A model generated the notes under the pieces. That model saw only the letters and a list, made by a program, of their open reading frames with translations. It was not told the origin of the DNA and searched no databases. Of a stretch of DNA of 64,000 nt, positions 37,615-39,532 are shown piece after piece. Within the stretch, counting starts at the first letter, position 1, and each line of letters starts with the position of its first letter. Source of the stretch: Streptomyces sp. NBC_01197 (GTDB taxonomy: Bacteria; Actinomycetota; Actinomycetes; Streptomycetales; Streptomycetaceae); assembly GCF_036010505.1 (NCBI RefSeq), contig NZ_CP108569.1, positions 682,001 through 746,000 of the forward strand. Reading direction: 5' to 3'. A program made the translations under genes and the position numbers.

Positions 37615-37936
37615 GGCAGCTTTTCCTTGATCCAGATGGGGAGGTGCGGGCGGGCGGGGCCGGTCAGGCGGACTGCTCGTCGGCGATCTTCTTCAGCAGC
37701 GTGATCGCGGTCATCGCGTTGGGCCATCCGGCGTAGAACGCCAAGTGCGTGATGGTCTCGGACAGCTCCTCGACGCTCAGCCCGTTCTCCAGAGCCTTGT
37801 CCAGGTGGTACGGGAGCTGCTCGCTGCGGTAGAGCGCGGCCAGCACACTCACCGTGACCAGGCTCCGGTCGCGGGGGGGGTGCCTCTATGTCGTTCGTCA
37901 ATTCCGCGCTGCCGGTTTCGGGGGTGTTGGTCTGGT

Positions 37937-39151
37937 TTATGCGGCGAGGGCAACGGTGGGTGTTCGGGGTTCGTAGAAGGTTCCGTCGCGGAGCATGGCG
38001 AACAGGACGCTGATGCGTTGGCGGGCGAGGCGGAGGAGGGCTTGGGTGTGGGTCTTTCCGCGGGCGCGTTGCTTGTCGTAGTAGGTCCGGGAGGCGGGAT
38101 CGGCGTTCATGCAGGCGAAGGCGGACAGGAACATGGCCCGTTTGAGCTGGCGGTTTCCGCCTCGTGGGGCGTGTTCGCCGTGGATGGAGGTTCCCGACGA
38201 CTTTGTTGTCGGGGCGAGGCCCGCGTAGGAGGCGAGGTGGGCGGCGGTGGGGAAGTTGGTGCCGTCGCCGACGGTGGTCAGCAGGACTGCGGCGGTCCTG
38301 ACGCCGACGCCGGGCATCGAGGTCAGGACCGGGGAAAGAGGGTGGGCCTCCAGCAGGGTGTTGATCTGGGCTTCCAGGGCCCGGCGCTGTGCGTGGACGG
38401 CGGCGAGCGAGCGGGCCAGGGACGGGACCACGATGTCGAGGGTGCCGGTGCCGGGAACGGTCACGGTCTGCTCGTCCAGGGCGTCGAAGACGTCGTCGAT
38501 CAGCCGGGCGGCCATGCGCGGGGCCTTGGGCCGGATGAGTTCGACGAGGCGGCGTCGGCCGGCTTTGCGCAGGGCGGCCGGGGAGCCGTGGCGTTCCAGG
38601 AGCCAGGTGACGGCCTGGTGGTCCAGGCGGGGGCCCAGGACACGCTCCAGCGACGGGTGGAACTGGGTGAGCAGGCCGCGTATCCGGTTGCTGGTGCGGG
38701 TGGCCTCGGCGGCGAGGTCCTGGTCGAAGCCGGTCAGGACGGTGAGCTCGGCGGTGATCTCGTCGGCGAGTTCGAGCGAGCGCAGGGTGTGGGGCAGGGT
38801 GCGGGCGGCATCCGCGATCACTGCCGCGTCCCTGGCGTCGGTCTTCGCCTCGCCGGGATACAGGTCAGCGATCCGGCGCATCGCGAGTCCTGGCAGGTAG
38901 GCGACTTTGCAACCGGTGTCCCGGGCGACGGCCAGGGGCAGGGCGCCGATGGAGGCGGGCTGGTCCACGATCACCAGCACCATGCCGAACTTCGTGGCCA
39001 GCTTCTCGAAGACGGCCCGCAGCTTCGGCTCGCTGTTGGGCAGCTGCTTGTCGAAGACCTTCTTCCCGGCCGGGGTCAGCCCGTGTCCGTGATGGGCACT
39101 CTTGCCGACGTCCAGGCCCAGGAAGACGCCCACCTCAGTGGTGTCGAGCAT
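37937..39151 (-). CDS. IS110-family transposase
   Basis: 404 residues. N-terminal DEDD domain: GVFLGLDVGKSAHH (Asp14), VIVDQPASIGALPL (Asp63 in the second acidic position) and KTDARDAAVIADAAR (Asp105, Asp108). C-terminal IS116/IS110/IS902 domain: SMPGVGVRTAAVLLTTVGD, FPTAAHLASYAGLAPTTKSSG and GNRQLKRAMFLSAFACMNAD, containing the conserved serine. Start ATG 39151 with GGGAG upstream; an in-frame start at 39220 is longer but without family similarity. Intact, so the element may be active. The family is RNA-guided in the members studied. Confidence 0.93.
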   Translation of the reverse strand: MLDTTEVGVFLGLDVGKSAHHGHGLTPAGKKVFDKQLPNSEPKLRAVFEKLATKFGMVLVIVDQPASIGALPLAVARDTGCKVAYLPGLAMRRIADLYPGEAKTDARDAAVIADAARTLPHTLRSLELADEITAELTVLTGFDQDLAAEATRTSNRIRGLLTQFHPSLERVLGPRLDHQAVTWLLERHGSPAALRKAGRRRLVELIRPKAPRMAARLIDDVFDALDEQTVTVPGTGTLDIVVPSLARSLAAVHAQRRALEAQINTLLEAHPLSPVLTSMPGVGVRTAAVLLTTVGDGTNFPTAAHLASYAGLAPTTKSSGTSIHGEHAPRGGNRQLKRAMFLSAFACMNADPASRTYYDKQRARGKTHTQALLRLARQRISVLFAMLRDGTFYEPRTPTVALAA

Positions 39152-39159
39152 CGTTGTTC

Positions 39160-39420
39160 TCCCTCTCCTCAAGGGGGTGTTCACGGTGCCGGCCTCGGCA
39201 TGGGTGTCGTACGCGCGCATCCACGTTATGCAGACCTGCCGCCCGCGAACTGTCCGGCATTGCGCCGGACCGGGCGGTGGCCGGACCTCTCATCAGCGTC
39301 TCCGACAACACCTCCCGGGCCCGGTGACACCACCCCCCAGGTCATGCCTTCGACAGGGGGCAACAGTCATGCCGGACCCGGAGGCCAGCGGTCCCATTGC
39401 AGGACCGCGAAAAACATAAC
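39160..39420 (-). ncRNA. candidate IS110 bridge RNA region
   Basis: The roughly 260-base non-coding end 5' of the transposase gene is where IS110-group elements such as IS621 encode their bridge RNA. It contains a strong structured core: GTCCGGC (39252-39258) pairs with GCCGGAC (39264-39270). This is extended by CCGCCCG (39239-39245) with CGGGCGG (39271-39277). The guide loops and exact ends were not assigned. Support comes from position, element family and structure, not from a recognised RNA sequence. Confidence 0.5.
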
Positions 39421-39532
39421 GGGGGGACAGTCCCGGGCGCTCCCACACGTCGCCGAAGAGCACGTCGTTCGTGACCTCGACCAGCTTGGGCGCGATCCGT
39501 GTCAGTTCCTGGGGTGCGGACTGCTTCGCCAT

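Follow-up and report, generated by a model that had tools for sequence, protein, structure and literature searches.

The non-coding left end (LE) of the IS110-group insertion sequence described here very probably encodes a bridge RNA of the IS621 type. This RNA would be roughly 205–220 nt long and would serve as a two-headed guide steering the element into runs of cytosines; we estimate the probability of this reading at about 0.92, the steps of the mechanism being taken from IS621. Two comparative results carry it. The predicted structure is conserved among relatives, and comparison shows that the guide letters track the element's own tips on the donor side and the insertion sites on the target side. 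The proposal of a bridge RNA in this left end, made in the original prediction, is thereby supported both by comparative structure and by guides that vary together with DNA, the RNA itself being predicted.

Coordinates refer to the window, that is, the whole 64-kb stretch of DNA that was analysed, and are collected in Table 1. The protein matches PF01548 (E 9.5e-49) and PF02371 (E 1.9e-23), both above the curated cut-offs. Among sequences of known structure it is matched by the recombinases of IS621 (PDB ID 8wt6, E 3.3e-15) and ISCro4 (PDB ID 9t56, E 8.7e-15), the latter being a relative with a solved structure that was compared by protein sequence only. The strongest similarity to both falls in the C-terminal part and, for IS621, is limited to residues 238–394. 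The tips in relatives mostly read GTTATG or GTTATC in the LE and GAGGCA or GAGACA in the right end (RE).

Table 1. Features of the insertion sequence and of its predicted bridge RNA, in window coordinates.
Feature	Position	Strand	Remarks
IS110-group insertion sequence	37881..39420	(-)	ends given without core dinucleotides; LE and RE tips recurrent in relatives
IS110 recombinase ORF	37937..39151	(-)	404 aa; DEDD RuvC domain and Transposase_20 domain
Non-coding LE (left end) with the predicted bridge RNA	39152..39420	(-)	269 nt, 5' of the recombinase ORF
Right end (RE)	37881..37936	(-)	56 nt
LE tip GTTATG (right donor)	39415..39420	(-)	
RE tip ACATAGAGGCA (left donor)	37881..37891	(-)	
Left flank CTGTCCCCCC, lying in the carboxymuconolactone-decarboxylase gene that is interrupted	39421..39430	(-)	
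C8 run at the right junction (core and right target)	37873..37880	(-)	
Putative core CC, right side	37879..37880	(-)	placed by analogy with L004, inside C8
Putative core CC, left side	39421..39422	(-)	at the end of the target's C6 run; probable for the window copy
5' stem-loop	39388..39408	(-)	helix 1: double changes in 4 of 7 pairs, 95.3% paired
Target-binding stem-loop (TBL)	39311..39384	(-)	helix 2: double changes in 6 of 17 pairs, 96.2% paired
Left target guide (LTG), GTTGCCCC	39357..39364	(-)	letters before the Cs vary with site positions -5 and -6
Small hairpin between LTG and RTG	39341..39354	(-)	helix 3: 99% paired, every change one-sided
Right target guide (RTG), GGGGGG	39333..39338	(-)	pairs with the CC core and CCCC
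UG after RTG	39331..39332	(-)	candidate handshake guide to donor CA, from sequence
Donor-binding stem-loop (DBL)	39203..39309	(-)	helices 4–6 and RNAalifold pairs 111–117 with 215–220
Left donor guide (LDG), GAGAGGUCC	39283..39291	(-)	letters 2–6 (AGAGG) equal the RE tip
DBL apical hairpin	39239..39277	(-)	helices 5 and 6: double changes in 5 of 13 pairs
Right donor guide (RDG), CAUAACG	39224..39230	(-)	complementary to C-GTTATG
TTGACG in the RE	37896..37901	(-)	candidate -35 box; promoter would be completed by the RE-CC-LE junction

Earlier, a non-coding end of 269 bases 5' of the transposase and a G-run target in a decarboxylase gene had been described from the sequence. The former was measured as exactly this interval (39152–39420), and the latter is borne out by real C-runs at both junctions, which read CTGTCCCCCC/GTTATG on the left and GAGGCA/CCCCCCCC on the right; the 3' piece of the interrupted gene alone matches PF02627 (CMD, E 2.9e-15). 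The two pieces of the gene occupy window positions 37664–37880 and 39421–39532, and an original C-run of 6 or 12 letters fits the reading frame. An uninterrupted form of this particular site was sought via the decarboxylase gene in eight relatives and was not seen there; these genes encode LSPRDRS or LSKRDRS and have no long C-run. The host genome (7.7 Mb) contains three near-identical copies of the element including that of the window, one relative with 73% identity (locus L004) and two short fragments. The other two near-identical copies also sit in C-rich sites.

Relatives were collected from three sources: a nucleotide search covering 295 genomes of the genus; a scan of named genomes seeded with the protein, from which the best 80 of 309 loci were used (78 of the 80 from Streptomyces); and a search with a pattern of the loop frame, which matched 115 of the 295 genomes and from which 30 loci were taken among the matches listed. 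The pooled set comprised at least 187 loop matches, collapsed to at least 161 distinct insertion rows. In 161 rows the search expressions missed the right end 25 times, the left tip 4 times, the LDG 4 times and the RDG 14 times. For the structural alignment, 67 representative left ends were selected from 97 distinct sequences so that no pair was more than approximately 96% alike; 27 of 185 loop matches had been left out beforehand, having no upstream sequence or no standard RDG, and alignment A1 omits L002 and L003, which are copies of L001. An alignment of whole left ends with their variable tail (MAFFT, RNAalifold) was also tried and rejected, as its consensus was worse than that of the trimmed set. 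The rows are related by descent and hence not independent, so the test values given below are not strict probabilities.

The structure drawn for the 67 left ends contains 44 pairs, and 95.4% of its 2803 cells are paired; conservation across copies had been named as a check on the bridge RNA, and it was found across relatives. Double changes occur in 16 of the 44 pairs against 7.9 +/- 1.9 in shuffled alignments, and none of 500 shuffles, which ignore relatedness, reached the drawn structure on any of five measures. When the partners are slid by 1–3 columns, pairing falls to 36–53%, a comparison that favours the drawn structure since it was drawn by hand on one of the aligned sequences. RNAalifold applied alone to the same left ends predicts 49 pairs, 20 of them with double changes; its pairs between columns 111–117 and 215–220, which belong to the DBL, show double changes in several cases. 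Judged by the conserved helices, the RNA would extend over at least about 39203–39408. The nested stems originally noticed at 39239–39277 stood the comparison: the CCGCCC...GGGCGG hairpin is real and located exactly there. It forms the apical part of the DBL and not the whole RNA, and both target guides lie outside it, at 39333–39364. Rfam gave no match at the gathering score across the 64 kb, and at E up to 5 it yielded no bridge RNA, only two weak and unrelated matches. Some left ends deviate in length. Those of L035 and L074 have 202 nt, with LE positions of about 50–96 (the target-binding loop) apparently deleted and the remainder kept, and that of L054 has 469 nt instead of the usual 260 or so, the additional stretch lying within the donor loop near LE position 150.

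Folding of the single sequence only mildly beats shuffled sequences, and does so nearly equally on the minus strand (z -2.34) and on the plus strand (z -2.28). Hence one sequence alone could not settle the presence of a bridge RNA, and it is the comparative evidence that does. Similar folding of both strands would also suit inverted repeats acting at the DNA level, to which the recombinase would bind at the left end and from which no RNA would arise, and the resemblance of LDG and RDG to the tips is what direct or inverted repeats would produce. We nevertheless regard such DNA sites as highly improbable. G-U pairs are frequent on the minus strand, as suits an RNA (UG 34, CG 16 and UA 16 in columns 11/23; GU 17 in columns 38/102), and the target guides match host DNA outside the element. 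Further, RNAalifold pairs the C-run of the LTG with GGTGG at and beside the RTG, and the two guides (C and G, respectively) are paired in the predicted fold of the single sequence as well. We read this predicted pairing as the guides binding each other in the free RNA, which would be no disproof of the loop.

The four predicted guides (LTG, RTG, LDG and RDG) occur in the order known from IS621. The donor guides follow the tips of the element to which they belong. Letters 2–6 of the LDG are identical to the RE tip of the same element in 92 of 92 distinct left ends, distributed among the variants AGAGG (72), AGAGA (12), AGGGG (7) and AGGGA (1). Under permutation the mean number of identical pairs was 58.5 and the highest of 10,000 permutations was 70, the LDG and RE expressions both accepting either A or G where the two letters vary. 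The change from G to A at the last of the five letters is present in two different subgroups. The RDG pairs with the LE tip at position 1 in 99 of 100 distinct left ends and at positions 2–5 in all 100, and paired exchanges are seen at tip position 1 (G-C/A-T) and at tip position 5 (T-A/C-G). The letters of both guides proximal to the core fit less well, the U of the RDG facing the first C of the core, and in the subgroup of the window element the LDG diverges from the RE tip beyond its sixth letter. Handshake guides are described for IS621 in the parts of PMC11208158 covered here; the UG following the RTG could play this role.

The target guides follow the DNA at the insertion sites. Of the 161 rows, 147 have GGGGGG as their RTG, 5 have AAAAGG and the remaining 9 have other near-G-runs. 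CCTTTT stands beside the insertion in all five rows with AAAAGG and in none of the 126 rows with other RTGs; a match of fewer than six of six letters was found in 11 of 131 rows. At the sites of non-AAAAGG members, C occupies positions -1 to -4 on the left in 142–143 of 145 rows. On the right it occupies positions +1 to +6 in 118–125 of 125 rows, the constancy of +1 and +2 being partly built in by the RE expression, which required C and then C or T there, and position +7 in 74 of 125. CCCC closes the left flank in 144 of 152 poly-C rows.

The letter of the LTG preceding its Cs was compared with site position -5, the first four Cs of the guide being aligned to positions -4 to -1. Among poly-C members, guides with T at this letter have T at -5 in 15 cases, G in 0, C in 90 and A in 2, and guides with G have G in 18, T in 2, C in 15 and A in 3 (Fisher 4e-8 for T and G guides against the site letter; 0 of 5000 permutations as high). 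Without L157 and L205, whose left neighbour is the second element X described below, T-guides have T 14 and G 0 and G-guides have G 18 and T 1 (Fisher 2e-8), and with one row per distinct left end and letter the value is 1e-5. Position -6 is also above chance (14 of 5000 permutations as high), unlike positions -7 (593 of 5000) and -8 (502 of 5000). The commonest site letter at -5 for T-guides is C (90 of 107) and not the guide letter; when guides with six or more Cs are read alternatively as specifying C at -5, the site has C in 28 of 29. The three copies of the window element have C, C and A at this position, not the guided G, and copy 2 in the host genome has a T within its C-run. In individual loci, the left guide matches its own site at GGTCCCC (L004) and at CAGCCCC (L178), and partly in L193 and L195; L131, read past an element inserted there, has the site AGGTCCCC for the guide GGATCCCC.

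These guide letters bear on the possibility that the recombinase protein alone reads the C-runs and the structured left end is a leader regulating translation or stability of the recombinase. The structure does lie directly 5' of the ORF, a leader role would conserve helices too, and the near-constancy of the C-run targets in the family makes most rows silent on who reads the site. But the letters in the loops track DNA outside the structure (the RTG exchange, the LDG identity and the LTG letter at -5), and a leader would not be expected to vary with insertion sites; we consider this explanation very unlikely.

Least probable of all, and in our reading already refuted, is chance combined with composition, by which C- and G-runs and C-rich flanks would coincide without function in DNA of 70% G+C. 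Hairpins rich in G+C are indeed common in such genomes, and many flank positions have C as their most frequent letter. Against this, C8 is rare in the host genome (67 overlapping matches), yet nearly all poly-C rows have CCCC on the left, and the double changes in the helices and the exchanges in the guides would be left unexplained. Merged by hand, the 67 matches form 44 distinct runs. Independent letters at 36% C would lead one to expect approximately 4300 matches, a crude yardstick by which the observed 67 is far lower.

For the bridge RNA, we infer from the aligned sites a homopolymeric target of approximately eight Cs, about CC-CC-CCCC with a CC core. With such a target the LTG and the RTG become mutually complementary. 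At six loci (L016, L018, L028, L095, L113 and L171) a family member adjoins a second member or a relative, and a run of five to eight Cs separates the RE of one from the LE of the next. The C-run left by one insertion may serve the next one as a target. Insertions in L004, L195 and L197, which belong to different subgroups, follow a similar flank, about GGATTCGG...GTCA, which may belong to another repeated element.

The core was placed with the help of L004, uninterrupted relatives of whose site were found in 7 of the 295 genomes. The filled site reads CAGGTCCCC on the left and CCTTTTCAGG on the right, with CCCC on the left side and CC on the right one. Its uninterrupted relative L264 (296 aligned bases, 88.9%) reads CAGGTCCCCTTTTCAGG, so the filled site has two Cs more, which points to CC as the core. 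Of the five uninterrupted sites aligned, L264 fits exactly, three have one extra T and one reads CCCCCTTT. The L004 relatives thus indicate a CC core, which in the window copy, hidden by the C-run, would be the same. A bare CC junction between RE and LE was not found in the 295 genomes with a strict pattern of 2–12 bases between GGCA or GACA and GTTA; the search returned one tandem junction with six Cs, and the pattern missed at least the tandem in L171. TTGAC is invariant in all 136 right ends read, and the distance from TTGACG in the RE to the LE tip is 17 nt once CC is added (counted by hand).

According to the parts of PMC11208160 and PMC11208158 covered here, IS621 excises as a circle, the RE-LE junction provides a promoter, and the recombinase binds the RNA, whose loops pair with target and donor. 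By analogy, the window element would excise as a circle with the junction GAGGCA-CC-GTTATG (GAGGCACCGTTATG), where the TTGAC box of the RE and the first bases of the LE would form the promoter driving the RNA. The recombinase would then bind the bridge RNA. The first loop would pair with the C-run, the LTG (xCC-CC) with the bottom strand and the RTG (GGGGGG) with the top strand; the second loop would pair with the donor junction, and strands would be exchanged at the CC core. The natural guides of L004, GGTCCCC and AAAAGG, would direct insertion to GGTCCCCTTTTC rather than to C8.

As far as the covered parts of the same two papers go, the window element resembles IS621 in the recombinase family, in the predicted RNA residing in the left end, in the order of 5' stem-loop, target loop and donor loop, in strand use, the left guide (5' side) being predicted to pair with the bottom strand and the right guide (3' side) with the top strand, in the putative two-base core and in the promoter at the RE-LE junction (reported for IS621, only proposed here). 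It differs in the putative core (CC instead of CT), in an RTG of six letters including the core instead of four, and in the homopolymeric target with mutually complementary guides. The seekRNAs of IS1111/IS110 elements, in the covered parts of PMC11187229, are likewise encoded in the long non-coding end and pick the target, with IS groups differing in their targets; those parts make no mention of C-run targets. In IS1111 elements, unlike the window element, it is downstream of the recombinase that the long non-coding region lies. Membership of the IS1111 group was therefore rejected, the RNA there lying in a long right end and the long end here being the left one.

A second IS110-group element, here called X, was seen inserted mostly at the left tip of the family. 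Three loci (L067, L207 and L208) lack the C-run to the left of the LE and have X there instead, in opposite orientation, and L209 contains a remnant of it. Its ORF in L207 matches PF02371 (E 2.3e-21) and PF01548 (E 2e-14). At E 1e-3 the left end of X has matches in 62 of the 295 genomes, many of these being weak; the search did not find it in the host genome. Observed loci are L067, L207–L209, L233–L247 and L252. At least 18 distinct insertions were obtained from 30 loci among the matches listed together with L067 and L208. Fifteen of the 18 read lie immediately next to base 1 of a window-family left end, L236 and L241 being assigned by weak matches (E 1.6e-5); one more has a family match elsewhere in its flank and two have none. 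The predicted LTG of X reads AACATAAC where the family tip (reverse complement) is AACATAAC, and AAGGTAAC where the tip is AAGGTAAC; the natural tip variants that the guide would follow are AACATAAC, AAGGTAAC and AAGATAAC. Seven or eight of the eight guide letters agree with the flank in 16 of the 18 insertions; the agreement extends in total to 132 of 144 letters, where permutation gave a mean of 112.7 and none of 20,000 permutations was as high. Probably, then, though with clearly less confidence than for the bridge RNA, these are two RNA-guided IS110 elements, X living on the window family as an RNA-programmed transposon-on-transposon parasite whose guide tracks its host. By inserting exactly between the LE tip and the core, X should disable the first element. 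The sources covered in part contain a precedent for one mobile element aiming at the end of another, but X, unlike that precedent, has IS110 domains and inserts at the tip of another IS110-group element.

The mechanism is of a known kind, the IS621-type bridge RNA discovered in 2024, and the element is a new and well-supported example of it; the matching of the guide of X to the left tip of the family, and its variation with this tip, is the most novel part of the findings. In the literature searched (parts of PMC11208160, PMC11208158, PMC11187229 and PMC3646047) we recognised neither an IS110 element targeting C-runs nor one aimed at another IS110 element. The family offers natural variation on a large scale for matching the individual letters of a bridge RNA with those of its DNA partners, one scaffold carrying at least two target programmes (C8 and GGTCC-CC-TTTTC) and four variants of the donor guide. 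It suggests that the system can aim at a homopolymer, where mutually complementary guides could block themselves and thus set a limit on reprogramming, and element X, for its part, points to RNA-guided elements taking one another as targets.
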